DNA of 64,000 nt from Flavobacteriales bacterium (lineage in GTDB: Bacteria > Bacteroidota > Bacteroidia > Flavobacteriales > UBA7312). How positions within the stretch are numbered: position 1 is the first letter of the stretch; the number at the start of each line of letters is the position of its first letter. A program made the translations under genes and the position numbers. Below are positions 6,001 to 31,008 of this stretch, in pieces. The notes under the pieces are model-generated. The model searched no databases and was not told where the DNA came from. It was given only the letters and a program-made list of their open reading frames with translations. Location of the stretch: contig JAQWJZ010000030.1 of the NCBI GenBank assembly GCA_029248105.1, positions 1 to 64,000 on the forward strand. The letters run 5' to 3'.

Positions 6001-9000
6001 CAACCGCTATGGCATCTATATTAAATGCTTCAGAACCTATTAATTATGTATGGACAATAAACCAAGAAAATAATATTACACAAACGACTGAGACTGCCAC
6101 AGGTTTAAGTCCAGGAACAATTTATTTAAATGGTACTGACGATAATGGTTGTGCAATTCCTTTAACGGTTGTTGAAATTCCTGAATCTGAAAATGCATTA
6201 ATTCAGGTTCAAATAGATATTCTTAACCCTAACAATTGTTTTAATGACTCACAAGCAGAGCTTGAGGCTGTAGTCTATAATGATGATAATACCCCTATTA
6301 ATAGTAATGTGCTATATCAATGGTATTTTAACGGAAATGCAGTTTTAGCATCTCAAGGGGGTACAGTTAATATTTTATCTGATTTAGGCCCAGGTGTTTA
6401 TTCTGTAGAAGTCATCAACGAAAACTTAGGCTGTATTCACTCCGATACTATTGAATTATTTAATCCATCGGAAATAACTATAGATATAGTTACTGAAGAT
6501 ATTGATTGTTTTGGTGATAGTGTTGGAACAGCTTTAGCAACAGTTGTTAATGGTACTCTACCATTAAACTATCAGTGGAACAATTCAATGGGAGTAAATA
6601 TAGAAAGTGATGTATTTAACCCATTAAATCTAAAGGCAGGAATTTATGAGCTCGTCGTTACGGATTTTAACGGTTGTAATCAATCTGAAGTTTTTGAAAT
6701 TTTTGAAAACGACAGTTTAGCATTAGAAATAAATGCTCAATCGATTAGTTGTTTTGGAGGCGACGATGGAATCATTTACTCATCTATTGTTGGAGGCTTT
6801 GGTGATTATTCATATCAGTGGCGCAACGATCTGAACGAGATTATTTCTATATCTCCTTCAGCGACTGATTTAACAGCTCAAAACTATACCCTTACTGTTT
6901 CTGATGATTTGGATTGTTCGGTAACTTCTTCATTAACATTAGATCAAGCTGAGGAATTTATTATCACAACTAACATTGTTGATATAAATTGTTTTGGGTA
7001 TTCAACTGGCTCTATTAGTCTAGATGTTTCGGGAGGAACAGGGGAGTTGACTTACGAATGGGATTCTACAGAAGACAATGTAAATCAAATTATAAATTTA
7101 AGTGAAGGCACATATCAAGTCATTATTTCTGATGAAAATGGATGCCAAACAACAGAGTCATATTATGTAGAACAATCGCCACAATTAGTAGCTTCAGCAG
7201 AAGGTATTTTCCAAAGTTGTACTGAAGGGATTGTAAATATTACCTCCGTTGAAGGTGGTACTCTGCCTTATGAATTTTTCTGGCTCGACGATCCGACTAA
7301 TGAAACAATGTCTATCTCTAATTTAATGCCTGGCTATCATACATTTATTATTTCTGACTTCTATGATTGTATGCTAACAGATTCTGCTCTTATTAGTGGA
7401 TCAAATGAAATATTTACATCGCTTTCTTCTGATAGCGTATTATGTCAGGGTGATTCGACTGGTTCAATTACAGTTAGTATTTTGAACGCTGATAATTATC
7501 CTTACTATTACTCAATAAATGATGAAAATTCATTTGACGAAATGGTTATCACCCCAACATTTGTTATTGATAGTTTACCAGTTGGAGATTATACTATTTA
7601 TATTAAAGACGGTGAAAACTGTATTGATACGACTGAACAACTTTCATTGTTTGAACCGACTTCATTAGAGGTTCAAATTTTATCTACTGATGTTTTATGT
7701 TTTGGAAACGATGATGGACTGATTTCTATTCAATCTTCTGGTGGTATTGCACCTTATGATATTTCTTTAGATGCTGGTAATACATTTGTTACTACTGACT
7801 TTGATGGTATGGAAGAACTGAATGTATTTAGTGGAGATTATGAAGTTTTGATTTCTGATCATAATGATTGTACTTTTTCAGAATCAGTATCTATTAATCA
7901 GCCAGAACCTTTATTCCTTTCGGTTAGTAATTTTTCTGATTATAATGGTTTTAACAACTCATGTTACAACTCTAATGACGCATCATTAACGATAAATATT
8001 TCTGGAGGAACAGGTGATATTGAATTATCATTTAATGACTCGTCATTAATGATCACCAATGGATTTGTATTAGAAAACTTGAGTAAAGGAGATTATTCAT
8101 TTGCAATCAGTGATACCAATTTATGTTCGGAAACATTAGATACTGTCATAACTGCTCCCGATACCTTGAGTTTTAGTTTGGTTTCAGTTTCAGACTATAA
8201 TGGTGTGAATACCAGTTGTTTTGGTATCAATGATGCATCGCTTTTAACTTCTGTTTCAGGAGGTGTTGGTCCTTATGATTACTCTAATAATGGTGGCACT
8301 TCCTTTATTGTTTCAAATACATTCAATGAATATAATTTTGAAAACTTAGGTGCTGGTATTGTAAACTTTCAAGTAAAAGATTTAAACGAATGTGTAGACA
8401 CCTTCTCTTATGAAATTACTTCCTCTGAAGAAATTATTCCTTCTTTGAGTTTATACACTCCAATTAGCTGTAATGGACTTGATGAAGCAGTTATACTTGC
8501 TGAAGTTCAAGGTGGTATTGCTGATTATACATTTGATCTGTCAAATCAAGAAAATACTCAAACAATTGAATCTACTGAGCTGTCAACTTTATTTACTGAT
8601 TTATCTTCAGGTTTTTATGAGCTTAATGTAGTAGATATTAATGGCTGTACTAACACTTTATCCAATGCTAGTCAGTTGAATGTTGATCAGCCAGACTCAT
8701 TAGCTTATGACATCAATATTGGAGAAATTTCATGTAATTCTGTAGCTGATGGAACTATGCAGATTAGTAATATTAATGGTGGTGTAGGGGAGTATTCATT
8801 TAAATTATATAATACTTCAGGTTTTTATCATGAAGAGGATAACTTAGAGAATTTCGATTTATTAGAATTTGATTCTCTAGCTTCATCGGCATATATTCTA
8901 ATTATTACTGACGAAAATGACTGTCAGATTTTGGATACTATAGCTATAGATAATCCTGAGATTTTGAGTGTTGTAGAGTCTGTCACGGATTTAGAATGTT

Positions 9001-10187
9001 ATGGAGTGCCTAATGGGAACGTACAATTAAACGTTCAAGGAGGCTCATCTCCATATGTATTGATACTTAATAATACTAACTATACTGAAGATGAAACATT
9101 CTCTATAGAGGGCTTGATTGCTGATAATTATAACTTTCAGATAATTGACGATAATGGTTGTGAATATATTTCAGACTTATTAATTTCTCAACCAGATTCA
9201 TTAATATTTGAATCGATAATTCAAAATAATATTTGTTTTGGTCAGTCATTTGGCGAGGTAACTTTTAATGTAACAGGTGGTGTTTTACCATATACCTTCC
9301 AGTTTACAGATGTTAACGGAATACTAATTTCAGATTCTAGTACTGTTTCTAACTTGGCGGCTGACACTTATTTCATAAGCGTTTCAGATTCTAATGGTTG
9401 TGCTTTTGATGATCAGATAGAAATATCAGAACCAAAAGAAATAGTTATTAGTCAAGTTGTATTTAATGAAACTTGTACAAACGCTAATGATGGACAAATC
9501 ATTACATCTATTTTAGATTTTCAAGAATCATTTGAAGTGTTCTGGTCTGATGTAAATTTATCAGGAATAGAAAACACAAACTTAAGTCCGAATGACTATA
9601 TCATTACTGTAGTTGATAATAAGGGTTGCTTTAAAACCGATACTGTATCTATTGAGAGTGCATTGGAATTAAATGTATTTACTGCTGTTACTCTTACTGA
9701 ATGTGAATATACCAACAACGGTGCTTTGAATGTCGATTTTCCACAAGACGGCAACTATTTTGTTCAATTGACTGATGGCACATCATCTTATCAAAATAGT
9801 ACGACAAATGAGCTTTTATTCGACAATTTATCTGCTGGCGATTACATCTTGACAATCAATTACGATTCGATTTGTACATACGATACTACCATTACTATAA
9901 CTCACGAAGGGGGCTATGGATGTATCGTTCCTGAACCAACATTTACTCCAAATTATGATGGTATAAACGATGAGTTTGCTCCAGCACAAGCATTTTATGA
10001 AAATGTAGAGCTGTTTATATACAACAGATGGGGAACAATGTTATACAATCAAAAATCTGTGAACCCAAAATGGGACGGTACAGATTTAAATGGAAATTTA
10101 GTTCCTAGTGCAGACTACTATTACATTATCAAGTTTAATAACACTTTGTTTAACGATTTAACAGGAATAATAACACTTCTGAAATAA
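72..10187 (+). CDS. Giant SprB-repeat cell-surface adhesin with T9SS type B C-terminal domain
   Basis: A secreted repeat protein of 3371 residues, probably displayed on the cell surface for adhesion or gliding. Residues 1-20 form a signal peptide. I count about 38 diverged units of roughly 75-90 residues. Each typically starts with a motif like SCFGxxDG, followed by GGxxPYxYxW, LxAGxYxxxVxDxxGC, and a closing EPxxL; this is the SprB repeat pattern. The Cys at each end of a unit probably form disulfides. From about residue 3283 the sequence TFTPNYDGINDEF and YNRWG marks the gliding-motility-associated C-terminal domain (CHU_C type), which directs type IX secretion. The start is TTG: no ATG lies upstream in frame before a stop, and the signal peptide begins right after it. 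The stop overlaps the ATG of the PorP/SprF gene (TAATG), so translation is probably coupled. Ligand is unknown. Confidence 0.9.
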   Translation: MTIKRYLFFILIIPFFANSQSITQISITDSIYCNGDAECVDIDLISFSNDEQYDLWIWRDIGLVNNQLIGIVEDVINSALYEPITSSSGTLNYCFENTGNYVLEITNESFDVVTDTIWTTMPWPVELGVNQMNSNNVLECNGNSDGTLKVNSIGGVPPLNFSWSGPNGFTATQTDVFISEISGLSAGNYFLFLTDNNGCENNSFVANVSEPSNISVDITIDNLESCYDSSDAQLTVTASGGNNSNYSYLWDNGETTPTILVGAGFHSVVVEDADGCQGNSFIELDEIPALSIDDIIIDDALCVNTEGFVELVVSGGTGDLSYDWPAGTSNTNTQNLSAGEYEINITDENSCLIQATFNVLEADSIEFSLNSIVNTNCFGTSDGEISFAISGGTPNYSITFNGENSLPLQYLNINSDTSFQNFEADNYSIFITDDNGCTNSQYLDSVSLFEPSELSITDTTITNVLCFGNSTGNIEVTVSGGHGNYIYNWTDELNNSIGNESFISDLSAGTYSLLVNDSVCSESFSFEITQFDQIQYQSLPNPNDVSCFGGNDGFISDLVIQGGLAPYQYSWDNNGVIITQANPSSLEAGLYELTVIDSNECQLSFPVVEISEPSELIFLPNSVISQPSCFNVNDGSMNIFANGGVTNYTYQLEEITSGSLYFDNELENLPAGEYNFKVTDSNGCEIDSLFTFNNPDDLVFSSTTSDLTCFESNDGFIAYSFEEGFIPPYTIYFEGAIQANDTVFGLAASSYTSFLEDGNGCTKTLINTISQPDIISYTSDVVIPSCNENNLLQNGLISNGKIILDLFGGSGFYEVIVNEDTNQVETGISFSINNLSADSYDIDVVDNQGCLLSFSETVQSPNPINVYADITDVIVFGNSTGSIDISVTGGQQPYDISWTGPGFISNSQDIINLQAGIYTLVVVDANGCYELFEYAVNQGDCNVQINPSVVEPSCSGDNAIINFDLYGGIPPYSCYLQGDIDSDGNIDEVLPNTNITSSLANDLVVPAGNEYTLFVEDASGCLLTYNFVIPVVEPISLSANMVNASCYGSENGKIIIDPLTDVTGGTAPYDINWLGLDLNPVDPYALSSGQYIVTIEDDNGCQDTSYFNISEPTQITLFDAIVSHTNCTEGTNTSASDGSISVIAQGGNTLGSGLYQYSWSDVSIPSLQNIDGLSPGSYSVTISDQTNCSSPVYSFEILSPEFIEFDYYTTDPISCHNNCDGSISVFTSNTSTDLFYWYDVSDSIYIGNSNTLNNLCEGSYYFAIENEFNCYRESPALGIGNITLDNPDEFTINLTHSVSVPNGLCNGLASVTSTSGVGLVTFDWSTGETTSTIENLCGNEIYQVIATDENNCESFEQFIVEEDDCNLSIGDLTVENISCNNANDGKIYSLNTFQGGYPPYTIYLYNQDILVDQQTTNSNLLNFSSLSEGEYFVILEDVGGCLSTFSTPITNPNPISYSYEIENSDCYNSFDPEVHITITGGTPFSGITAYDIDFFDYEYYVSYEENGIENYVSGNSVSSGNYPLIVSDSNECITPIIPSNDIFIVEVNEVDSIFVDVQVTSPSCNGDSDGIAILTFNGGQGPFDINWYENGSILPIAQSNIIVEGLSAGNYYVSVKDTLGCETIHYFDIIDINPITVVSQITSPSCVGSSDGSISTIISGGNGGYDYLWSPGSMISNNVTGLSAGIYDLIITDVSSCVHTETFVVNDPDVIAIDLSVSTISCNGLSDGSISATASLGSGIYTYQWYLNGGAISSLDGGISPDIVNLSSGIYSVEVMDTYGCTSSMSYEMVEPSSISIEIEQNDPSCFGFNDGQFIASVNGGADGFQFVLKDESNNILTEEFYSNQLLSGTYNLVVTDINSCQDSVLFTLNDPDAILLNVNVTDVSCYDGNNGSATFDVQNNIGPVNNTWSKVIALNDYEPISFSEILNNNVVEGNYILEVIDSIGCIQSEFFSVEQADSIEVTILTSPSVCSNVSGATAMASILNASEPINYVWTINQENNITQTTETATGLSPGTIYLNGTDDNGCAIPLTVVEIPESENALIQVQIDILNPNNCFNDSQAELEAVVYNDDNTPINSNVLYQWYFNGNAVLASQGGTVNILSDLGPGVYSVEVINENLGCIHSDTIELFNPSEITIDIVTEDIDCFGDSVGTALATVVNGTLPLNYQWNNSMGVNIESDVFNPLNLKAGIYELVVTDFNGCNQSEVFEIFENDSLALEINAQSISCFGGDDGIIYSSIVGGFGDYSYQWRNDLNEIISISPSATDLTAQNYTLTVSDDLDCSVTSSLTLDQAEEFIITTNIVDINCFGYSTGSISLDVSGGTGELTYEWDSTEDNVNQIINLSEGTYQVIISDENGCQTTESYYVEQSPQLVASAEGIFQSCTEGIVNITSVEGGTLPYEFFWLDDPTNETMSISNLMPGYHTFIISDFYDCMLTDSALISGSNEIFTSLSSDSVLCQGDSTGSITVSILNADNYPYYYSINDENSFDEMVITPTFVIDSLPVGDYTIYIKDGENCIDTTEQLSLFEPTSLEVQILSTDVLCFGNDDGLISIQSSGGIAPYDISLDAGNTFVTTDFDGMEELNVFSGDYEVLISDHNDCTFSESVSINQPEPLFLSVSNFSDYNGFNNSCYNSNDASLTINISGGTGDIELSFNDSSLMITNGFVLENLSKGDYSFAISDTNLCSETLDTVITAPDTLSFSLVSVSDYNGVNTSCFGINDASLLTSVSGGVGPYDYSNNGGTSFIVSNTFNEYNFENLGAGIVNFQVKDLNECVDTFSYEITSSEEIIPSLSLYTPISCNGLDEAVILAEVQGGIADYTFDLSNQENTQTIESTELSTLFTDLSSGFYELNVVDINGCTNTLSNASQLNVDQPDSLAYDINIGEISCNSVADGTMQISNINGGVGEYSFKLYNTSGFYHEEDNLENFDLLEFDSLASSAYILIITDENDCQILDTIAIDNPEILSVVESVTDLECYGVPNGNVQLNVQGGSSPYVLILNNTNYTEDETFSIEGLIADNYNFQIIDDNGCEYISDLLISQPDSLIFESIIQNNICFGQSFGEVTFNVTGGVLPYTFQFTDVNGILISDSSTVSNLAADTYFISVSDSNGCAFDDQIEISEPKEIVISQVVFNETCTNANDGQIITSILDFQESFEVFWSDVNLSGIENTNLSPNDYIITVVDNKGCFKTDTVSIESALELNVFTAVTLTECEYTNNGALNVDFPQDGNYFVQLTDGTSSYQNSTTNELLFDNLSAGDYILTINYDSICTYDTTITITHEGGYGCIVPEPTFTPNYDGINDEFAPAQAFYENVELFIYNRWGTMLYNQKSVNPKWDGTDLNGNLVPSADYYYIIKFNNTLFNDLTGIITLLK

Positions 10188-13004: not shown

Positions 13005-14282
13005 TTAATTATCTTCAATAAAATAGTTGTCAATATATGATATAGAAAACTTCTTATAATTAAGTAATTTATGAAGTTTAATATACTCAGCTTTTATCTT
13101 CTGTTTTTCATTTAAATCCTTCTCAATAGAATATTTATATATCAGTAAAAAAACCATTGCAATATCTTCATAACTATATCTTATTTCATCTAAAGAAAAT
13201 TGCTTGAAGAATTTTTTCTCAAGACTCTTTACTTTGGTTATTTTATAGTAATAAGTGCACATTAAATAATAATAATTCAAATAAAATAATTTGTAGTCAC
13301 TATTGAATAATTGATTTTCGTTATGGAAGTAATTAATAATATATTTCATAATATCCATATTTTTAGAAATCAATGCTTGTACTATAATTTCGAGGAAATA
13401 ATCGAGATTTTTCTTCTCCATTATTTCATGTTTGCTGGAATATCGATTTAGTAAATCTTCAATATCATCGTAATTGTTAGCCATGATTTTTACGGACAAC
13501 AAACGACTGCATAAAACAGGGTGGAATTCTGAGCTGAATGCCAAATTATCAAATTTATCGACAACAGCTGAATTATTCATATAGCTATTAAGCTCCATTA
13601 AGGCAGAGGTAAAGAGTTTAATCTCTTTATTCTTTGTTGTTTCATTGACATATTTTGCCCATTCACCATAGTATTTATTCAAGTTGGTGTAATCAACAAA
13701 AATTAAAAAAACAATTCTTAAAAAATTAATGTTTTGAAGTAACTCTTTATTTACAACATTATTCTTTCTAAAAATGATTCCAACAGAATTTCCTAAGTTT
13801 AAGATCTCGTGATAGCTAAAACTATCATACTTTAATTCTTTTTGTTTGAAAATTTTATTTAAATCTTCAAATTGTTTGTTGTAGATAAGTTCACGAATAA
13901 GAAGAGTTAATAAACTCAATACATCACTTGAACTTGTTCTGATATCTTTTACTAAGTGTAATAACTCCTTTTCATTGGTTTTATAAATACGGTCTGAAAT
14001 TTTAAGTCTATATTTAAAAGAATAGGTTTGAATAAAATGCGAATAATTTTTATAACCATTAAATCGAGCTAATTTATCTAGAGTTTTTGTACGTGTTTTA
14101 ACATCTGGAGCAAGTCCATAAATTCTTCTAAATGTATTATAATTTATGTATTCATCAATTGTCTCAAGAATAATTTCTGATAATAGTTTGCAGTTGCCTA
14201 AATTATTAATTTTAAATTTTACTTTCTTTTCAGTAATACTTTTAAGTTCTTCAAAAAAATATGTGTTTTTACTACTCGACAT
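13005..14282 (-). CDS. Hypothetical helical protein, possible regulator
   Basis: Function is not known. The N-terminal 100 residues have the pattern NCKLLSEIILETI, YINYNTFRRIYGL, TLDKLARFNGYKNYSHFIQ. I have seen this arrangement at the start of uncharacterised Bacteroidota proteins; it looks like a helix-turn-helix-like or scaffold domain. The remaining 325 residues are almost all helical and rich in Lys, Asn, Tyr and Leu, as in TPR or HEAT-type solenoids. There is no signal peptide or membrane segment, so it should be cytoplasmic. It starts 4 bases after the small membrane protein gene at 14287-14754 and is surely co-transcribed with it. A regulator acting with that membrane protein is a guess. 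Confidence 0.6.
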   Translation of the reverse strand: MSSSKNTYFFEELKSITEKKVKFKINNLGNCKLLSEIILETIDEYINYNTFRRIYGLAPDVKTRTKTLDKLARFNGYKNYSHFIQTYSFKYRLKISDRIYKTNEKELLHLVKDIRTSSSDVLSLLTLLIRELIYNKQFEDLNKIFKQKELKYDSFSYHEILNLGNSVGIIFRKNNVVNKELLQNINFLRIVFLIFVDYTNLNKYYGEWAKYVNETTKNKEIKLFTSALMELNSYMNNSAVVDKFDNLAFSSEFHPVLCSRLLSVKIMANNYDDIEDLLNRYSSKHEIMEKKNLDYFLEIIVQALISKNMDIMKYIINYFHNENQLFNSDYKLFYLNYYYLMCTYYYKITKVKSLEKKFFKQFSLDEIRYSYEDIAMVFLLIYKYSIEKDLNEKQKIKAEYIKLHKLLNYKKFSISYIDNYFIEDN

Positions 14283-14286
14283 CTAA

Positions 14287-14754
14287 TCAATCTATTTTCA
14301 TACTTAGTATACTATCAATTAGTTTCTTCCTTTCTTTTTTGTTAAGAATAGATACGTTTACTATATGTTTGTTTTTTGATAATGTAGTAATTTTTAACTC
14401 TTTCTTGAGTCCTAAATATTTAGATTTTTCAGAGGTTTTAATTTTTGATGATTTAGGTATTTGAATATAGCTAATATGGTTCTTTGAAAACCATAAAAAA
14501 ACATTGGTAGATTTAATTTTTATCAAATCATCACTAAAGTATATAGAAATTTGATTTACCCCAATAATGGATAGTAGTATGGGTATTACTGCAGGAATAA
14601 GAAATAATAAAATATTGCTTTTAATGCTAATACTTATCATGCCGTTTGTGCTTATTAAAACAATAAGAGCTATAACATAAAGTATTATTATCTGATAATA
14701 CAAATACATTAAAAGTAACATTTTGATTTTCGAGCTAAGGTTTTTTTTTCTCAT
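14287..14754 (-). CDS. Small two-span membrane protein, paralogue of the parE-parC spacer protein
   Basis: An unrecognised protein of 155 residues. Two hydrophobic segments (about residues 12-36 and 46-66) are followed by a soluble tail of about 90 residues that looks like a beta-rich, PH-like fold. It aligns by eye with the protein encoded at 27902-28378. The shared core is IPxxIPIxLSxxGxN after the second membrane segment, a central Phe-Ser region, and GLxKxLxI near the end. It is the first gene of a two-gene unit with the helical protein at 13005-14282. Membrane topology predicts the tail faces one compartment throughout, but which one is not clear. No catalytic motif is visible. Confidence 0.6.
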   Translation of the reverse strand: MRKKNLSSKIKMLLLMYLYYQIIILYVIALIVLISTNGMISISIKSNILLFLIPAVIPILLSIIGVNQISIYFSDDLIKIKSTNVFLWFSKNHISYIQIPKSSKIKTSEKSKYLGLKKELKITTLSKNKHIVNVSILNKKERKKLIDSILSMKID

Positions 14755-14823: not shown

Positions 14824-14899
14824 AGATAATATACTATCAAAATAAGTACATATTAAGTACAAATAATTATTTTAAAAAAAGAGCTTAAAGGTCGATTTA

Positions 14900-17887
14900 T
14901 CAGTGAAAAATGAGTCTAATTCTAGAAATATTGAAAGCTGTATTAATTGAAAGAATATAAAAACCCTTTGGAAAATCCATTAAATTCAAATCATGCTCAA
15001 AAGAATCTGTTTTGATTTTAGTAATAGTAACTACTTCTTGACCAATTGGGTTAATAATTTTAATATCAACATTTTGTATGTTAGGAAGTGTTACTGAAAT
15101 ATTAAATATACCATTAGAGGGGTTAGGATAAACATAAATATTTTCTAATGAGGTATTTATTCTATTGCTTCCCAAAGCGTAAAATTGATATGCTGTAAAA
15201 GGTGTAGCCCATGAAGTGCCATTAGTACCGCAAGCACCTCTAATTCTCCAACAGTAATCACCAGCAGATAGGCCAAACTTAGTTTTAGTATTTGAAGAGC
15301 CTGAAAGATTATTCCACGCCCATACTTGCCCAGTTGTTAGGTTGGTAAGTTCTAAAAAATAATGGTCTGGTTGTCCGCTAGTAGGAGTGTCCCATGACAT
15401 AGTTATTGCTGTATTAGCACTATTATTAGTTGTGCTTAGGTTGTTTGGTATTTTATCACAGTTATCTTGTGTAGTGAATGGAATAAAACTTCCCCAGCCA
15501 GAATGGTATTGTGAATCGGATATTCCATTTTCATCACTATTTCCTGTACACCATGCTTTGGTGTGCCATTCATAGGAAGTATTAGGAGTGAAGTTGCCTT
15601 TTAAAACGTCAATAGAATTACCACCATTAACGTATCTAAAGTTAGATGTGCCAGACTCTCGGATTTTTCCTTTGGATTGCCATATTTGCCAATCACCGCT
15701 TGGTTCATTGGCCGTAAATGTTACCCAATTTGCTTCTGTTTCAACGGATAGGTTTTCAAGGTTGGGGCATGAAGGTAAAGTGGTAAATGTTGCATTTTCA
15801 GACCAATCCGATTGGCATTCTGTACTGCCGCTTGGGTTGACTACCCTTGCTCGAATAGACCACTCATAAGTTGTATTATCTTCTAAGAAATACCGTGTTC
15901 TTGAAACACCAGAGTAGGGGTTTGTATTTTGAGATCCAGCAGAAATAACGGTCCAAGACGATAGGCCTTGAATACGATAGCGAATCATGTAATAAGAGGG
16001 TAAAGCACTAGGCTGATCCCAATTAAATGTAACTCTATTGTGAATAATATTATTAACAGTTAAGCCAGTTGGAGCATTGTCACAAGGGTTATCAGGGTAC
16101 AAACAACTTCCGTCATATAATGTTGCTTGAGGGACATAATTCGTTGCTGATGAGTCAGTACACCCTGATATATATTCGCAACTACCATTATTAAAATAAG
16201 CGTTTGGGTTATAGTTTATTGCTAATTCATCAGTACAACCGAAGTAACAACATATACAAGAGCCATCGTCTACTGTTGCATCGGCATCAAAGTTTATTGA
16301 AGCAGGATCGGTACAGCCTTGAATGATTATTTCACAGGGTTGATAATGACTACCTAAATTACTCCAATCGTTATTTGACAATACTTCCCATTCGGAGTTC
16401 TCTAAATTTGTTCCTGCTGATTCTTCCCAGTTATCATTTCCTTGACTAACAGAGCATTTTCTAACTAATGTATGGTCTTTTGTTCCATTTGATACACCAG
16501 CTACTGGCCAAGCACTTCCAGGGTCACCATTCCAATCACCGATTCTATCAACAACTATATATCCTCCAACTGTTGGGTTAGAGTTTGTTGAAGGTTGGGT
16601 TCCATATACTAGAGCTATGCCATCATCACCATTACTGAGATGCGTAGTAGTCATATTTGCCGATGCGAGTATTGTTGGGTCTGAAGAGGCGTGAGCTACA
16701 ATAAAAACACCATTAGCAGGCACATTAGAACCAATATCGAAGTAATGCCAAGAGTCATAAACTCCTACTTGTGCTGGAGCATTTACCACCAAAGCCATGG
16801 CATAGTTATCTAAACTTACCGATGAAGATGAAGGATTATATATTTCAAGGTATTTGTTGTTTGAAGATCCTTCGGCATATTCGGAGAAAAAGAGAACAAT
16901 ATCATCATTTCCTGTGTCGTAGGTACAAGATCCATCGTCTATTGAAGCATCAGGATTGAAGTTAAGGGCTAATGGGTCGGTACAACCGTTAGCATAAACT
17001 AAACTAATGCCTACGGGCATATGGTCTGTAATATTATTGTCATAAGAGTTGAATCCGCCACTGATATAATTATCAACCTGAATGGTAGCTACATCGCTTA
17101 CTGTTGAATTGAATTCATCGAATATTTCATTAGTAATAAGTATATGGTCAATGTGGCTTGGCCAGTTTGGAAAAGAGAAGTTTTGTGGATTACCTAATGC
17201 TATTTCCATATCTGCAAATTGATAATCGCTATCATCAATGAAGTTTTGAAAAACATTATCACTTTCGTCATCCGTCAGTTCGTCATTATAGTCGCCAATT
17301 ACCAATACATTTTCATCATTTAAATTGTTGTCTATATAGGATTTAATGTGGTTCAAGGCCACTAGTCTTCTGTTTTCTTCATCAGAAGAATCAGAGGTAT
17401 TAAGGTTGCCATCTCCACAACATTTGAGGTGGACGTTAATTACATAATATTCAATGTTGTTTTTTTCTACGTGAATCAAATAAGGTGGCCTTCCTGCAAA
17501 AGCATAATTGTAGTTGTTAGACGATAGTATAGCGTAATCGTCAATAACTGTAATATCATTTTTAACAGCATAAGCCAGATTAATACCGCCATAATTAGCA
17601 TCTAGCACATATCCTGTGTAACCATTGGTAGAAGCCATCATAGCATTGAAAGCATCCATATCGTTTATTTCTTGAAAGCCTATTACTTCAGACTCCAATT
17701 CTATGATGATATCAGAAACATAATCTTCTGTTGTGCCATCTACTTTAGGAAAGGTTTCTAAGTTCCACGTAATTACATCGAATGTATTATCGTTACCAAA
17801 GCTCAAATTACTAAGCGATTGCCCATTAGTATTAATGAAAAATAAGAAGAAGAAAACACCAAATAAAGATAGGAAAAGATGGTTCAT
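14900..17887 (-). CDS. Secreted multidomain EEP-family nuclease/phosphatase with T9SS type A tail
   Basis: A secreted enzyme of 995 residues, probably an extracellular nuclease. Residues 1-22 are a signal peptide. Residues about 25-297 are an endonuclease/exonuclease/phosphatase domain with its metal and catalytic motifs intact: FQEIND, VIGDYNDE, WPSHIDHILI and DHMPVG. A GCTDP...DGSC repeat occurs near residue 300 and again near 524, 551 and 576. Between them, about 331-500, is a lamin-tail-like domain (EYAEGSSNNKYLEIYNPSS). Three fibronectin type III-like domains cover about 605-890. Residues about 915-995 are a T9SS type A sorting domain (YVYPNPSNGIFNIS). A shorter paralogue is encoded divergently at 17968. 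DNA scavenging for phosphate or nucleosides is likely but inferred; phosphoester substrates other than DNA are possible. Confidence 0.88.
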   Translation of the reverse strand: MNHLFLSLFGVFFFLFFINTNGQSLSNLSFGNDNTFDVITWNLETFPKVDGTTEDYVSDIIIELESEVIGFQEINDMDAFNAMMASTNGYTGYVLDANYGGINLAYAVKNDITVIDDYAILSSNNYNYAFAGRPPYLIHVEKNNIEYYVINVHLKCCGDGNLNTSDSSDEENRRLVALNHIKSYIDNNLNDENVLVIGDYNDELTDDESDNVFQNFIDDSDYQFADMEIALGNPQNFSFPNWPSHIDHILITNEIFDEFNSTVSDVATIQVDNYISGGFNSYDNNITDHMPVGISLVYANGCTDPLALNFNPDASIDDGSCTYDTGNDDIVLFFSEYAEGSSNNKYLEIYNPSSSSVSLDNYAMALVVNAPAQVGVYDSWHYFDIGSNVPANGVFIVAHASSDPTILASANMTTTHLSNGDDGIALVYGTQPSTNSNPTVGGYIVVDRIGDWNGDPGSAWPVAGVSNGTKDHTLVRKCSVSQGNDNWEESAGTNLENSEWEVLSNNDWSNLGSHYQPCEIIIQGCTDPASINFDADATVDDGSCICCYFGCTDELAINYNPNAYFNNGSCEYISGCTDSSATNYVPQATLYDGSCLYPDNPCDNAPTGLTVNNIIHNRVTFNWDQPSALPSYYMIRYRIQGLSSWTVISAGSQNTNPYSGVSRTRYFLEDNTTYEWSIRARVVNPSGSTECQSDWSENATFTTLPSCPNLENLSVETEANWVTFTANEPSGDWQIWQSKGKIRESGTSNFRYVNGGNSIDVLKGNFTPNTSYEWHTKAWCTGNSDENGISDSQYHSGWGSFIPFTTQDNCDKIPNNLSTTNNSANTAITMSWDTPTSGQPDHYFLELTNLTTGQVWAWNNLSGSSNTKTKFGLSAGDYCWRIRGACGTNGTSWATPFTAYQFYALGSNRINTSLENIYVYPNPSNGIFNISVTLPNIQNVDIKIINPIGQEVVTITKIKTDSFEHDLNLMDFPKGFYILSINTAFNISRIRLIFH

Positions 17888-17967: not shown

Positions 17968-19005
17968 ATGCAAAAAATCTTAACCCTTAGTTTATTTTTC
18001 CTTTTTTCTAACACTTTTTCTCAAAGTCTTTCGGACCTTACATTTGGTGGCGTAGGTTCCTTTGAAGTTGTGACTTGGAATTTGGAGTTTTTTCCAAAAA
18101 ATAACCAAACCACTATTGATTCTACTGCTTTGGCCATAAGTTCACTCAATGCCGACGTTTATGCTTTGCAAGAGATTGATGATCTTGACGCACTACAAGA
18201 GTTAGATGATTTGCTAGAAGACTATCAAGCCTATGTTATTCCTGAAAATTACAATAACTTGACTTTGGCATACCTAGTTAAAAAGGATATTGAAGTGGTA
18301 AATTTGAACTCCATTTATGCCTCATCTTCTTACAATAATATATTTGCTGGACGTCCTCCTCTTTTATTAGAATTACTTTTTAATGGATCTAGTTATTTTT
18401 TGATAAACGTTCATCTTAAATGTTGTGGAGATGGTAGCTTGAATACAAATGATAGTTCCGATGAGGAGAATAGAAGGCTACAAGCGGTTAATCAAATCAA
18501 AACCTACATCGATAGTTATATCCCTAATGAAAAGGTAATTGTATTGGGTGATTATAACGATTTGTTAGAGGATAATACATCAAATAATGTTTTTCAATCT
18601 TTGTTAGATGATTCGGACAGTTATCTTTTTGCTGATATATCTGTTTTGGATTTGCCAAACTCTCACTGGTCATTTCCTAATTGGCCTTCTCACTTGGATC
18701 ATATCCTTATTACTAATGAATTATTTGATGAGTTCAATAATGCCTATAATTATGCTACTACTATAAAGATGGCAGACTATTTTACAAATGGTTTTTATGG
18801 ATATGACAATTGTATTTCTGATCATTATCCTGTTGGCATGCGTTTGTGGCCTTTTGTAACTGAGATTGAGGAAAAAAAACCAACGGACAAAAGACTCAAT
18901 CAAATTCGAGATATTCAAGGTAGAATAACGAATCCACAACACAATCAAATTCAATTCTATTTTTATGAAAATGGAACTGTAGAAAAATCAATTTTATTAG
19001 ATTAA
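17968..19005 (+). CDS. Secreted EEP-family nuclease/phosphatase, short paralogue
   Basis: A 345-residue secreted enzyme related along its whole catalytic domain to the larger protein at 14900-17887. Residues 1-18 are a signal peptide. The EEP motifs are intact: LQEIDD, LGDYND, WPSHLDHILI and SDHYPVGM. Both proteins also share the stretch NVHLKCCGDG followed by a Ser/Asp-rich segment and EENRRL. It lacks the lamin-tail, fibronectin and GCTDP modules. The last 40 residues (IRDIQGRI, then FYFYENGTVEKSIL) resemble the end of a second kind of T9SS tail that finishes with YDDGTVEKR in other Bacteroidota proteins. It may therefore still be secreted by T9SS. The SDR gene starts one base after the stop, so the two are probably co-transcribed. 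Confidence 0.85.
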   Translation: MQKILTLSLFFLFSNTFSQSLSDLTFGGVGSFEVVTWNLEFFPKNNQTTIDSTALAISSLNADVYALQEIDDLDALQELDDLLEDYQAYVIPENYNNLTLAYLVKKDIEVVNLNSIYASSSYNNIFAGRPPLLLELLFNGSSYFLINVHLKCCGDGSLNTNDSSDEENRRLQAVNQIKTYIDSYIPNEKVIVLGDYNDLLEDNTSNNVFQSLLDDSDSYLFADISVLDLPNSHWSFPNWPSHLDHILITNELFDEFNNAYNYATTIKMADYFTNGFYGYDNCISDHYPVGMRLWPFVTEIEEKKPTDKRLNQIRDIQGRITNPQHNQIQFYFYENGTVEKSILLD

Positions 19006-26061: not shown

Positions 26062-27912
26062 ATGGCAGAAAATCAATATACAGAAGACAATATCCGTTCG
26101 TTAGATTGGAAAGAGCATATTCGCCTTCGTCCTGGTATGTATATTGGTAAGTTAGGTGATGGTTCTTCTGCCGATGATGGTATATACATTCTTATCAAAG
26201 AAGTTATTGATAACTCCATTGATGAGTATGTGATGGGTAATGGTAAGACAATAGAAGTATCCATTCGAGACAAGAGGGTTACAATACGAGATTATGGTCG
26301 TGGTATTCCTCTTGGAAAAGTTATTGATTGTGTATCTAAAATCAATACTGGTGCCAAATACGATTCTAAAGCGTTTAAAAAATCAGTAGGTCTTAATGGT
26401 GTAGGAACAAAAGCAGTTAATGCACTGTCAAGCCATTTTAAAATACAATGTGTTAGAGATAACCAAACCAAAGTAGCAGAATTTGAAAGTGGGGTTATTA
26501 TTAACGATTCTCCTATTGAATCTAGTACCAACAGAAAAGGTACAAAGGTTACTTTTACACCTGATCATTCTATATTTGGGAATTACCGTTTTCTCAATGA
26601 ATATGTTGAGAAAATGCTATGGAATTATTGTTACCTAAATCCTGGTTTAACAATTATCTACAATGGTGAAAAATTTTATTCTGAAAACGGTTTAAAAGAC
26701 TTACTAGAACAGAATATTGATTCTAAAATAGTTTATCCTGTATTACACCTGAAAGGAGAAGACATTGAAGTGGCGATGACTCACTCTCAGAAAGCTTATG
26801 GTGAGCAATATTATTCTTTTGTCAACGGTCAGCATACTACTCAAGGAGGAACACATCAAGCAGCTTTTAGAGAAGCAGTAGTTAAAACGGTAAGAGAGTT
26901 TTATGGCAAGAATTTTGATGCGGTTGATATTCGACAAAGTATCGTTGCGGCAGTTAGTATAAAAGTAATTGAGCCTGTTTTTGAATCCCAGACCAAAACA
27001 AAATTAGGTTCAAATGAGATAGGGCCAGGAATGGTTACTATTCGTACGTTTATCAATGATTTTTTAAAAACACAACTAGATAATTATCTTCATAAAAATC
27101 CTGAAACAGCAGAGTTGTTTTTGAAGAAAATTATTGAAGCAGAGAAAGAAAGAAAAGCATTAGCTGGGGTTAGGAAGTTGGCAAAAGAACGAGCTAAAAA
27201 AGCTAACCTACACAATAGAAAACTCAGAGATTGTCGTGTTCATCTGAATAATGAAAAAAATGATAGGCGATTTGAAACCACATTATTTATAACTGAGGGT
27301 GATTCAGCAAGTGGTTCTATAACCAAAGTCAGAGATGTCATTACTCAAGCTGTATTCAGCTTAAAAGGCAAGCCCTTGAACTCTTATGGTTTGACAAAAA
27401 AAATCGTTTATGAAAACGAAGAGTTTAACCTACTTCAAGCAGCATTAAATATAGAAGATGGCTTAGAAGGTTTGCGATATAAAAATGTCGTTATTGCTAC
27501 TGACGCAGATGTTGATGGTATGCATATTAGATTATTACTTATAACCTTCTTCTTGCAGTTTTTTCCTGAGCTGATAAGAGAAGGCTACTTGTATATCCTC
27601 GAAACTCCATTGTATAGAGTCAGAAATAAAAAAGAAACCGTTTATTGTTATTCAGAACAAGAAAGGGTAGATGCTATTAACAAACTTGGTAGAAATCCTG
27701 AAGTAACACGATTCAAAGGTTTGGGAGAAATATCACCTAATGAGTTTAAGCATTTCATTGGAAAAGATATGCGTTTAGAACCAATTATTATTGGTAAGAA
27801 AATGAGTGTTGAAGATTTGCTTTCATTCTACATGGGCAAAAATACGCCTGAAAGACAAGAATTTATAATAGAAAATCTAAGAGTTGAAAAAGATATTAGT
27901 AATGAAGAATAA
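26062..27912 (+). CDS. parE: DNA topoisomerase IV subunit B
   Basis: ATPase subunit of topoisomerase IV, which unlinks daughter chromosomes. The 616-residue protein has the GHKL ATPase fold: [20 protein letters not shown] and [14 protein letters not shown]. The transducer follows, with QTKTKLGS. The TOPRIM domain has [18 protein letters not shown] and [11 protein letters not shown], the metal-binding Asp triad. I call it ParE rather than GyrB because parC follows closely and the start [18 protein letters not shown] is the Bacteroidota ParE form. Its end overlaps a small membrane protein gene by 11 bases. A weak TATATTTT upstream near 26031 might be part of its promoter. Confidence 0.95.
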
Positions 27913-28378
27913 CGATTTGTTTTCATTTGAAAATAAGCTCAATTTTGTAAAGAGCTTATACATAGCAATGCTGGTAGGATATATAATCATTCTATTGTTT
28001 TTATTTTTTACCAATGGTTCTATACAAAATAATATTCAGGATAATTATTTATACATTTTACTTCCTTTATTTATTCCTATATTCTTGTCAATGGTTGGTC
28101 TTAATAATTTCAAGATTGAAAAAAATGCTGAAAATGTCAAAATATACTCTGATTGTATTGTCATGAGTAGCTTTTCAGATAAATTCAATAAAAAAATGAT
28201 AATTAATCTTCATGAGCCATTCGACAAAAATATTACTATATCTCATTTTGGATTAAGGAAATCCCTTATCATTAGACAAAACATCAATGATAAATTAGTA
28301 AGTGGTAAAATAAATATCTCTCTTTTATCTAGCATTCAGCACAATGATTTACAAGAAAAATTAAAAAGTAATAAATAG
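27902..28378 (+). CDS. Small two-span membrane protein between parE and parC
   Basis: A 158-residue protein of unknown function. Two hydrophobic segments (about residues 19-41 and 51-70) are followed by a soluble tail of about 85 residues. I chose the ATG at 27902; a longer frame begins at a TTG at 27884 deep inside parE. It overlaps parE by 11 bases and its stop overlaps the parC GTG start (TAGTG), so all three genes are probably translationally coupled. It is a diverged paralogue of the protein at 14287-14754, sharing the IPxxIPIxLSxxGxN core and the GLRKSLII-like tail motif. Membrane attachment of topoisomerase IV is one possible role, but nothing in the sequence shows it. Confidence 0.7.
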
Positions 28379-31008
28379 TGGATAACACCTCTGAACATAA
28401 CGATTTACCACAAGACATTTCTCATGTAAACGGAATGTATAAGAACTGGTTTTTAGACTATGCTTCTTATGTTATTTTAGAACGTTCAGTTCCATTGATT
28501 GAAGATGGTTTAAAGCCTGTACAACGACGTATTCTTCATGCTTTAAAAGATCTAGACGACGGTAGATTCCACAAAGTAGCAAATGTAGTAGGACACTCAA
28601 TGAAATACCACCCTCATGGAGATGCTTCTATTTATGACGCTATGGTCCAAATAGGTCAAAAAGATATTCTACTTGATTTACAAGGAAACTGGGGAAATAC
28701 ACTTACTGGTGATAGTGCTGCAGCAGCTAGATATATAGAAGTTAAATTATCCAAATTTGCTCTAGAGGTTGTATATAATTCAAAAATTACTGAATTCACT
28801 CCATCATACGATGGTAGAGGTAAAGAACCCGTTGCACTACCCGTTAAATTCCCACTACTTCTTGCACAAGGTGTTGAAGGTATTGCTGTCGGTTTATCAA
28901 CCAAAATTTTACCACATAATTTTAATGAATTAATAGATGCTTCTATTAAAATTTTAAAAGGAAGTAAGCCAAAGATATACCCAGATTTTCCAAATGGAGG
29001 AATGGCAGACTTCTCTAATTATAACGATGGTTTAAGAGGAGGGAAGGTAAGAGTTAGAGCTAAAATTGAAGTTCTTGATAGCAAAACTTTAAAGATTAGT
29101 GAGCTCCCTCATGCTACAACTACAGTTTCTTTAATTAACTCCATATTAAAAGCCAACGATAAAGGGAAAATTAAAATTAAAAAAATTGACGATAACACTT
29201 CAGAGGGAGTTGAGATATTGGTTTATTTACCAGCAGGTGTTTCTCCTGATAAAACTATTGATGCTCTTTATAGTTTCACAGACTGTGAATTAGCAATATC
29301 ACCATTAGGATGTGTTATCGATAGTGACACCCCACGTTTCATGGGGGTGAGCGAAATGCTTCAAGTTTCTACTCAAAATACTTTAGAGCTTCTAAGGAAA
29401 GAGTTAGAAATTAACCTTAAAGAACTTCAAGAGAAGTGGCATTTTTCATCTTTAGAAAAGATATTTATAGAAAACCGTATTTATCGTGATATTGAAGAAT
29501 GTGAAACTTGGGATGCCGTTATTAAAGCAATTGACGATGGATTAAAACCACACATTAAACATCTTTTAAGAGAGGTTAACAAAGACGATATAGTTAGGCT
29601 CACAGAGATAAAAATTAAAAGAATCTCGAAATTTGATAGCTTTAAAGCGGATGAAGATATTCTGAAACTAGAAGATCAAATAGCTATCATAAAAAATCAT
29701 TTAGATAATCTTGTTGATTATGCTATAGATTATTTTAAAAACCTTAAAAAGAAATACGGTGAAAAAAGAGGTAGAAGAACTGAGATAAAAACATTTGACA
29801 ACATTATTGCCGCTAAAGTTGTCGCTAAAAATCAAAAGCTTTACGTTAATAAAGAAGAGGGTTTTATAGGAACAAGTATGCGAAAAGATGAATTTGCATT
29901 CAACTGTTCTGACATAGATGAAATAATAGTATTCAGAAAAGACGGAAAAGTAGTTGTGACTAAAGTTGATAAAAAGACTTTTGTTGGTAAAAACATTATA
30001 CATCTAGCTGTATTTAAAAAGAAAGATGATAGGACAACTTATAATATGATTTACACTAATGGAGTAACCAAAAACTCCTATATGAAACGTTTTCATATAA
30101 CAAGTTCGACAAGAGATAAAGAATACGATCTTACTAAAAATGGAAAAGGAGAAGTTCTTTATTTTACTTCAAATCCAAATGGAGAGGCAGAAAAAGTTAC
30201 CGTACACTTAAGAGCTTTACAACGTTTGAAAAAGTTAAAATTAGATATAGATTTTTCTGAACTAGCAATCAAAGGCAAATTATCAATGGGTAATTTGGTT
30301 TGCAAATCACCCATTAAGAAGATAGAGCTAAAAGAAGAAGGTGTTTCTACCTTATCAGCCAGAAAAATTTGTTTTGATGAGTTAATAAACAAGTTAAATA
30401 CAGAAGAAAGAGGCAAATACTTAGGGGAATTTGAAGCAGATGATAAGATCCTTGTTATTCAAAAATCAGGGGTTCTTCAATTATTAAACTTTGATTTAAG
30501 TAGACATTTTAATGATGACATTCTTCTTATTGAAAAATGGAAGCCAGAAAACCCTTTAACGGCGGTGTATTTTGATAATTCAAAAGAATGTTATTATGTC
30601 AAGCGATTTATTCCTGTTAATTCTGATAAGTCCATAACCATAATTAGTGACTCTAAAGGTTCTTTTCTTGAAATAATAACTTCTCACCCTTCGCCAGAAT
30701 TAAATATTTCCTTTGTCAAGGAAAGAGGAAAAGATAGGAAAGAAGAGCATTTAGTTCTTAAAGATTTTATCGCTGTAAAAGGTGAAAAAGCACAAGGCAA
30801 TAAACTCAGCTCAAAGAAAATTCACAAACTCAGTTTGATTGAAAAAGAAGTTGAACAGAATGAAGAAGAAGTTGTAGAGGAGATAAATAAAGATAAAGAT
30901 TTTGTAAAAAATGATTCATCTGACGAAATTAAAACAGAATCTGAATCTGATACAAAAATAATTATTGACGAAGATAGCACTGACAATCAGTTCAAACTCG
31001 AATTATAA
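28378..31008 (+). CDS. parC: DNA topoisomerase IV subunit A
   Basis: DNA-cleaving subunit of topoisomerase IV. The 876-residue protein begins with GTG. The winged-helix DNA-binding region has LKPVQRRILHALKDLDDG and HPHGDASIYDAMV; the catalytic Tyr lies in GDSAAAARYIEVKLS near residue 121. A long coiled-coil-containing region covers about 340-480. The C-terminal part is a degenerate beta-pinwheel, followed from about residue 820 by a Glu/Asp/Lys-rich tail. The quinolone-pocket position that is Ser80 in E. coli ParC reads Ala here, with Ser at the next residue, as I recall for Bacteroidota ParC. It follows the small membrane protein gene with a 1-base overlap. Confidence 0.94.
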   Translation: MDNTSEHNDLPQDISHVNGMYKNWFLDYASYVILERSVPLIEDGLKPVQRRILHALKDLDDGRFHKVANVVGHSMKYHPHGDASIYDAMVQIGQKDILLDLQGNWGNTLTGDSAAAARYIEVKLSKFALEVVYNSKITEFTPSYDGRGKEPVALPVKFPLLLAQGVEGIAVGLSTKILPHNFNELIDASIKILKGSKPKIYPDFPNGGMADFSNYNDGLRGGKVRVRAKIEVLDSKTLKISELPHATTTVSLINSILKANDKGKIKIKKIDDNTSEGVEILVYLPAGVSPDKTIDALYSFTDCELAISPLGCVIDSDTPRFMGVSEMLQVSTQNTLELLRKELEINLKELQEKWHFSSLEKIFIENRIYRDIEECETWDAVIKAIDDGLKPHIKHLLREVNKDDIVRLTEIKIKRISKFDSFKADEDILKLEDQIAIIKNHLDNLVDYAIDYFKNLKKKYGEKRGRRTEIKTFDNIIAAKVVAKNQKLYVNKEEGFIGTSMRKDEFAFNCSDIDEIIVFRKDGKVVVTKVDKKTFVGKNIIHLAVFKKKDDRTTYNMIYTNGVTKNSYMKRFHITSSTRDKEYDLTKNGKGEVLYFTSNPNGEAEKVTVHLRALQRLKKLKLDIDFSELAIKGKLSMGNLVCKSPIKKIELKEEGVSTLSARKICFDELINKLNTEERGKYLGEFEADDKILVIQKSGVLQLLNFDLSRHFNDDILLIEKWKPENPLTAVYFDNSKECYYVKRFIPVNSDKSITIISDSKGSFLEIITSHPSPELNISFVKERGKDRKEEHLVLKDFIAVKGEKAQGNKLSSKKIHKLSLIEKEVEQNEEEVVEEINKDKDFVKNDSSDEIKTESESDTKIIIDEDSTDNQFKLEL

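Follow-up and report, generated by a model that had tools for sequence, protein, structure and literature searches.

Receptors of the RRNPP group (PlcR, PrgX, Rgg, NprR) carry an N-terminal DNA-binding domain, and MalT, which also binds repeated sites, carries its DNA-binding part at the C-terminus. In a paper on RRNPP receptors that treats Firmicutes, their length is given as 250–500 aa (PMC10075063). The PHb families DUF304, DUF1200 and DUF2244 are described by Xu et al. (2010; PMC2817789) as membrane-anchored proteins with an intracellular PH-like domain that lack strand beta1, DUF2244 having two N-terminal TM helices.

The window, that is, the whole stretch of 64,000 nucleotides analysed here from a Flavobacteriales bacterium (genome G000), contains two adjoining genes, PH2 and HX, whose products were compared with these proteins. 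PH2 resembles PHb proteins in having two N-terminal TM helices and, in a model of low confidence, six strands and a C-terminal helix, and 3hsa and 3dcx are its best structural matches; its family differs in reaching no Pfam bPH or DUF cut-off and in having its usual place between parE and parC. HX (425 aa) resembles RRNPP receptors in its length, in the possibly TPR-like solenoid of its model and in structural matches that run nearly full-length. By contrast, no sequence relation to them was found, nor was a propeptide gene found in the window; the candidate operator of HX consists of phased direct repeats and occurs at a single site in each genome of the window genus, and the host belongs to Bacteroidota as opposed to the Firmicutes treated in that paper. 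The alpha-solenoid of HX matches domain III of MalT (1hz4, Z 8.0), but HX lacks the length for an ATPase module and would bind DNA through its N-terminal end. The features of the window are as follows.

14287..14754, minus strand: PH2 (155 aa, ATG start), paralogue of the spacer protein, with two TM segments and a C-terminal PH-like domain at about aa 66–155
13005..14282, minus strand: HX (425 aa, ATG start), all-helical, with an N-terminal helical domain at about aa 4–90 followed by an alpha-solenoid
13998..14267, minus strand: N-terminal helical domain of HX (about aa 6–95), putatively DNA-binding, from AF2 helices and conserved motifs
14843..14861, minus strand: candidate HX operator TGTACTTAATATGTACTTA, a direct repeat of TGTACTTA with period 11
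27902..28378, plus strand: spacer protein between parE and parC, the parent-type copy; an earlier TTG start is possible at 27884
26062..27912, plus strand: parE, context of the spacer copy, from sequence and synteny in relatives
28378..31008, plus strand: parC, context of the spacer copy, from sequence and synteny in relatives

PH2 and its paralogue between parE and parC

The products of 26062..27912 and 28378..31008 are presumably ParE and ParC, judged by their sequences and by synteny in relatives. A preliminary description of this DNA had given the coordinates, minus strand, length and start of PH2 correctly, and the two-gene unit that it proposed with a 425-residue helical protein is real: HX follows PH2 on the same strand after 4 bp in the window and after 1 bp in each of two genomes of the same genus (G003 and G004). 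PH2 lies 13 kb from parE–parC, i.e. it is a paralogue and not a syntenic orthologue of the spacer gene. The paralogy itself, also proposed there, proved true. BLASTP aligned the two proteins with 31% identity over 144 aa (E 1e-12), and hhalign, with three orthologues on each side, aligned columns 7–150 with E 1.7e-17 and a probability of 98.9. Their local alignment score was 151, whereas 1000 shuffles that preserved the composition of the TM part and that of the remainder separately averaged 42.9 and never exceeded 74. Similarity was significant in both the pairwise and the profile–profile comparison that had been proposed as a check and, because the homology stands well above chance, the objection named in advance, a lack of significant profile similarity, fails. 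The TM half supplies most of the pairwise signal (shuffle z 14.2); the C-terminal halves alone were equalled by 107 of 1000 shuffles, which is not significant pairwise, and it is the profile that links them. The core quoted for both proteins, IPxxIPIxLSxxGxN, is exact in PH2 (IPAVIPILLSIIGVN), whereas the spacer protein has its own 15-residue version.

Hydropathy peaks at aa 22–40 and 48–66 of PH2 are preceded by a positively charged N-terminus, and only about 7–12 residues lie between the TM segments. An AF2 model built from three sequences (pLDDT 66.6) contains helices at residues 8–35 and 48–64, six strands and a C-terminal helix. For residues 61–155, the VIA matches listed were mostly of the PH superfold, the best being the PHb structures 3hsa (Z 7.1, rmsd 3.3, 84 residues aligned) and 3dcx (Z 6.8), values in the range below 8 that, as the tool warns, may reflect chance arrangements. 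PH domains ranked first in Foldseek at E 0.15 or worse, and no convincing match emerged when profiles were searched against solved structures, the best one (E 0.012) being to a stretch over the TM part. From its sequence, the PH-like domain of PH2 is predicted to be cytosolic.

In the window genome, PH2 and the spacer protein were the sole PH matches at E ≤ 10. Throughout the order, a nine-member profile gave 106 PH matches in 83 of 395 genomes, and a sample of 198 genomes from the class had matches to a 50-row profile in 9, several of which were weak. The search for the family with its neighbours, as had been suggested, covered 50 aligned members (49 from the 106 matches and one from another search): 36 lie beside parE or parC, five beside HX and nine elsewhere, either before a small gene and an hflX-like gene or after a tadA-like gene (families f8 and f5; gene names by eye), the second PH copy of G243 also being counted among these nine. 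Several families of the order have the spacer gene, usually with no regulator adjoining it, and PH copies number two or three in several genomes lacking the pair (e.g. G013, G076, G090, G115). The PH family is lineage-specific with its usual place between parE and parC, and its pairing with HX is derived, having been seen in two lineages. The "small family" of the preliminary description stands in that the two window copies do form a family, but this family is neither small nor based on the pair.

Pfam and NCBIfam held no convincing model for the 50 PH members (weak matches included DUF2244 once, E 0.018, and PH_2 once, E 0.034). No Pfam family came near its cut-off for the PH2 and HX proteins of the window, scans of Pfam, NCBIfam and PADLOC gave no family for PH2 or HX, and the anti-phage models of PADLOC had no match at E ≤ 0.01 among five proteins. 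None of the papers listed in literature searches dealt with the spacer protein, with HX or its relatives, or with the HX repeat. Elsewhere in the window, positions 14900–17887 and 17968–19005 encode adjoining paralogous endonuclease/exonuclease/phosphatase proteins, one of them with fn3, LTD and Por_Secre_tail domains and with a C-terminal region that occurs several further times in the genome; positions 72–10187 encode a 3371-aa repeated-module protein whose C-terminus is, by eye, of gliding/T9SS type.

HX and its candidate operator

HX, whose orthologue in G004 is 72% identical, was modelled by AF2 over its 425 residues from ten sequences (pLDDT 83.8) as an all-helical protein. Helices at 4–21, 28–42, 48–54, 65–74 and 80–101 form an N-terminal unit, with block pLDDT of 82–95 over residues 11–90, beyond which the model is an alpha-solenoid. 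TLRR and TLDILA-like motifs are kept in this unit across 27 diverse members. A search for an HTH in the N-terminus gave nothing significant in Pfam (best HTH_Tnp_Tc3_2, E 0.022, and HTH_AraC, E 0.063) and no HTH model in NCBIfam, and no TPR family matched HX at a useful E-value, the solenoid being seen in the model. Foldseek returned repeat proteins, PPR (pentatricopeptide) proteins first, and the best VIA matches, APC/C subunits (Z 10.3) and Rap proteins, cover the solenoid only. Four of the 50 VIA matches listed begin at residue 6 or 7, namely PrgX (2axz, Z 9.1; 2aw6, Z 8.0), PlcR (2qfc, Z 8.2) and NrpR (9lth, Z 8.1), with rmsd of 8.7–13.3; by the tool's own account, Z values of 8.0–9.1 are within the chance range for helical repeats. 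The models suggest that HX is an HTH-plus-solenoid regulator with an architecture like that of PlcR and PrgX, and the regulator-like nature ascribed to the helical partner of PH2 in the preliminary description is borne out.

HX belongs to an uncatalogued protein family, matched in 24 of 395 genomes of the order versus 83 for PH; in family f6, 30 matches were found in 29 of 178 genomes. At 22 of 22 f6 loci HX stands alone, without a PH gene, as it does in the stretches fetched from G355, G343 and G040. Because HX is alone at all these f6 loci, the majority of which have their own operator-like repeat, HX is autonomous and the membrane protein optional; because HX without PH2 is usual and PH is present in far more genomes, the two are not obligate partners. 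These loci speak against the pair, a putative membrane sensor with HX as its effector, as a core design. No neighbour is common to all 22 of them, and HX recurs there at certain places, either close to an rpoC-like gene or flanked by pyk-like and groEL-like ones (L236–L255, L117, L118); given its patchy presence, f6 HX is possibly mobile or often lost. In plasmids and phages HX had no match at E 1e-3, and a viral structure library gave unspecific repeat proteins only. Flavobacterium aciduliphilum (L128) has four HX-like genes in one 15-kb locus, two of them with upstream period-10 repeats of TTGCAA type, another half-site with similar phasing. In genus g55 (L106–L109, L111–L113, L115, L116), a divergent HX lies beside a recurring gene of about 300–360 aa, often with one of 132–144 aa. 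No Pfam family was found for the one pair of these neighbours scanned, and it is possible that they are other partners of HX.

The intergenic region before PH2 in G000, G003 and G004 has one strongly conserved block, TGTACTWAATANGTACTT, the best window of which has 19 of 22 columns invariant as against 48% across the whole region. The near end of the candidate operator is 88 bp upstream of the PH2 start, and in the window genus the repeat lies at −102 to −109 from PH2, farther than in f6. An 18-base consensus has exactly one perfect match in each of the three genomes, always before PH2; with two mismatches, matches elsewhere in seven genomes numbered 10, compared with 8 for the reversed control, and a scan of the window with up to 3 mismatches gave one match versus 0.07 expected. 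The lone HX of G355, from another family and 33–35% identical, is directly preceded by TGTACTAATAATGTACTGA on the other strand. Three period-11 copies precede PH2 in G198 (TGTATCAATTA, TGTATCAATTA and TGTAACAA), and G303 has one repeat pair before HX and another before PH2, the period-11 repeats of these two genomes being of the types GTATCAA or TGTAACA. A sigma-70-type promoter scan was near chance (21 found versus 17.6 expected) and gave no terminator. The −7 box of Bacteroidota is TANNTTTG; by eye, the window seems to have one (TAATTTTG), but G003 and G004 do not have it at the corresponding position.

Of 30 HX-related upstream regions, 11 had TGTA repeats with a period of 10 or 11, compared with 13 of 460 other such regions; the repeat may be due to chance in one or two of these 11 (G120, L128_136). 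Among the 19 HX regions without the repeat, three or four show a variant, namely those of G003, G004 and G303 HX (GTAC or GTATC) and, at 300 bp, that of G379; there is no repeat in G343, one G040 copy, five of six g55 genes, the Flagellimonas genes and most Flavobacterium-type HX genes. The operator thus belongs to certain branches of HX and not to others. In a motif-blind comparison, 8-mer direct repeats of period 11 occurred in 8 of 25 HX regions outside f6 versus 11 of 352 controls (p 5.5e-6), the eight including related genomes as well as G120 and G339, which look like chance, and not including G003. Of the other periods from 8 to 15, the next best was 8 (p 0.047), and period 10 had p 0.23. 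The motif-blind repeat for G303 PH2 differs from the TGTAAC one. In the flanks of 29 GTAC-core sites, direct repetition was better than inverted in 20 and worse in 3, with 6 ties.

For f6, a prediction was set down before fresh HX genes were fetched; four f6 genes among the 11 of 30 regions had served in no motif definition but had been seen in the same comparison. The fresh set comprised 22 genes (30 matches less three N-truncated ones and five genomes already used). The repeat was present in 19, from six genera, always with period 10 and at −34 to −73 from the HX start, compared with none of 22 non-overlapping control regions (Fisher p 1.1e-9). An initial count of 8 in 43 controls had included neighbours sharing the HX intergenic region, which were removed to give this control set. 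The p-values overstate independence because related genomes share sites by descent. The repeat is lacking in G602, G617 (stops in the HX frame) and G647; in G621, G690 and G693 the HX frame has a stop and the repeat is kept.

In 19 HX-bearing f6 genomes, picked since the site had already been seen in them, TGTACANNNNTGTACA occurs once in 14 and twice in five, one copy always being before HX. It is absent from five genomes without an HX match, and the reversed control gave two sites in 24 genomes. HX is beside none of the second sites in the five genomes, of which four fall inside genes, at gene edges or where no target is evident, and one directly precedes an integrase-like gene. Apart from its own site, no target of HX was found. 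The f6 site, TGTACA-N4-TGTACA, is also palindromic and as RNA could fold into a hairpin. In G686 (L235) it lies where a cas9-like gene ends, directly ahead of a cas1-like gene (gene names by eye), which is probably chance.

Origins of the PH2–HX pair

Close PH2 orthologues among 99 genomes (the window genome included) were found only in G003 and G004, in each case followed by HX. In family f11, a second PH copy lies near an HX homologue in G303 and G198, and gene orders differ: HX–PH2–glycosyltransferase in G303, PH2–glycosyltransferase (PF00953)–HX in G198 and PH2–HX in the window genus. A second PH copy is also present in G243, some 70 bases from the start of its contig, and the G243 genome gave no HX match. 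Phylogenetic analysis placed the PH2 copies of the window genus with the spacer copies of the same genus (support 95/89), and the second copies of f11 among the spacers of their own genus (100/99). A single ancestor of the paired PH copies was rejected: forcing the five HX-adjacent copies together cost 73.8 log-likelihood units (AU p 1.8e-7; 8.4e-6 when the copy of G243 was added as a sixth). Because the AU test rejects one origin, the trees place the formation of the association at least twice, each time from the lineage's own spacer gene, unless gene conversion misleads. An alternative to a duplication confined to the window genus had an AU p of 0.07 and was not rejected. Direct profile comparison of the two paired PH groups was weak (probability 9%), and they are linked through their spacer relatives.

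In the HX tree, the paired loci (G000, G003, G004, G198 and G303) fall in a group of seven (93/95), the unpaired members being G355 and G343, the latter on a contig of just 3.8 kb. Loss of the pair in G002 and G001 was considered; the G002 contig ends there and allows no judgement, and G001 (65% complete) has another ORF after the nuclease gene. HX is lost in G218, which has no second PH copy; a 39-aa C-terminal HX remnant (64% identical) is left at about 5753–5869 of L114, between ychF-like and transketolase-like genes. A simple model with 1500 genes gave a probability of about 7e-6 for PH2 to lie within two genes of HX in two lineages by chance, a figure that ignores the after-the-fact choice of partner and any bias of duplicates to stay near parE. 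In comparisons of the window with G003 and G004, dN/dS was 0.11–0.17 for HX and PH2 at a dS of 1.6–1.8, near saturation; between G003 and G004 it was 0.44 for PH2 and 0.23 for HX, the G003 HX having an in-frame stop. Judged by these substitution ratios, both genes are under purifying selection. The stop in G003 HX (L004/L031) is one in-frame TAA that leaves pieces of 254 and 168 aa, a real decay or a MAG error.

A proposed self-regulated operon and its alternatives

The homology, the operon layout, the conserved repeat with its near-uniqueness per genome, the repeated pairing and the purifying selection are directly supported. We lean towards a reading of PH2–HX as a self-contained, self-regulated operon, in which HX would be the autoregulator of its own promoter and PH2 the output. 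HX very likely binds DNA: it would be cytosolic, and its N-terminal helical domain would grip tandem TGTAC-type half-sites, one helical turn apart, that would lie upstream of its own transcription unit. The alpha-solenoid may sense something or oligomerise. By controlling its own promoter HX would limit its own expression, and it is fairly likely to do so as a repressor rather than an activator. Twice independently, once in the window genus and once in a genus of a different family, a duplicate of the spacer gene would have come under HX control. PH2, which two TM helices would anchor so that its PH-like domain faces the cytosol, would then be the output of the switch; that it is the regulated output of HX is likely, because it shares the operator of HX or, in G303, has its own. 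PH2 may also bind the HX solenoid and feed the state of the membrane back to HX, a physical contact that we hold to be somewhat doubtful.

That HX is the sole functional unit, PH2 being a functionally unconnected passenger that landed beside it by chance and is kept for spacer-protein dosage, would suit the occurrence of HX without a PH gene at all 22 f6 loci and in the stretches of G355, G343 and G040, as well as the two or three PH copies of several pair-less genomes. It is unlikely in view of the adjacency in two lineages, which stems from independent duplications, shows differing gene orders and has a very low chance in the simple model, where partner choice is ignored; the period-11 repeat before PH2 in the window genus and G198, and the separate one before PH2 in G303, also speak against it. 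One form of the membrane-sensor-plus-effector design of the preliminary description would make PH2 a membrane anti-regulator that holds HX and frees it on envelope stress, as in an anti-sigma-like pair. Alpha-solenoids bind proteins, both genes are in one operon, and the PH-like domain is predicted, from the positive N-terminus and two TM segments, to be cytosolic, as HX must be. So few residues separate the TM segments, however, that PH2 has no sensor part on the outer face, and HX repeats are present where no PH gene is near, which makes such a function rather improbable.

Two further readings concern HX itself. The upstream repeat might be an RNA element, and HX a PPR-like RNA-binding solenoid for which a UGUACA hairpin in the leader of its mRNA would be the point of self-control; pentatricopeptide proteins are indeed its best Foldseek matches, and the f6 site is self-complementary and close to the HX start (−34 to −73). 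We find this quite improbable, as alpha-solenoid matches are unspecific, the half-sites of G198 and G303 are direct repeats without self-complementarity, the flanks of GTAC cores favour direct over inverted repetition, and a spacing of 10–11 bp is a turn of duplex DNA. In its length and putative HTH-plus-solenoid layout HX is like PlcR, PrgX and Rgg, as would befit an RRNPP-type quorum-sensing receptor reading a secreted peptide, but no clear propeptide gene was found in the window, where the flanking gaps have ORFs of 20, 22 and 44 aa that by eye are unlike exported peptides, and this role is highly improbable.

Returning to the self-regulated operon, its broadest form is put forward tentatively: HX would be a new, patchy Flavobacteriales family of strictly self-targeting DNA-binding solenoids, with one private phased operator per genome in its main branches, that would have twice independently captured a spacer duplicate to form a minimal membrane-linked autoregulatory switch. 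Two uncatalogued protein families thereby gain a testable function, one as a regulator with a predicted operator and the other as a membrane protein encoded in the spacer between topoisomerase IV genes. A regulator with essentially one genomic site, its own, raises the question of what such a private switch serves, and an answer at the envelope is suggested by the fact that one membrane protein was taken up again independently.
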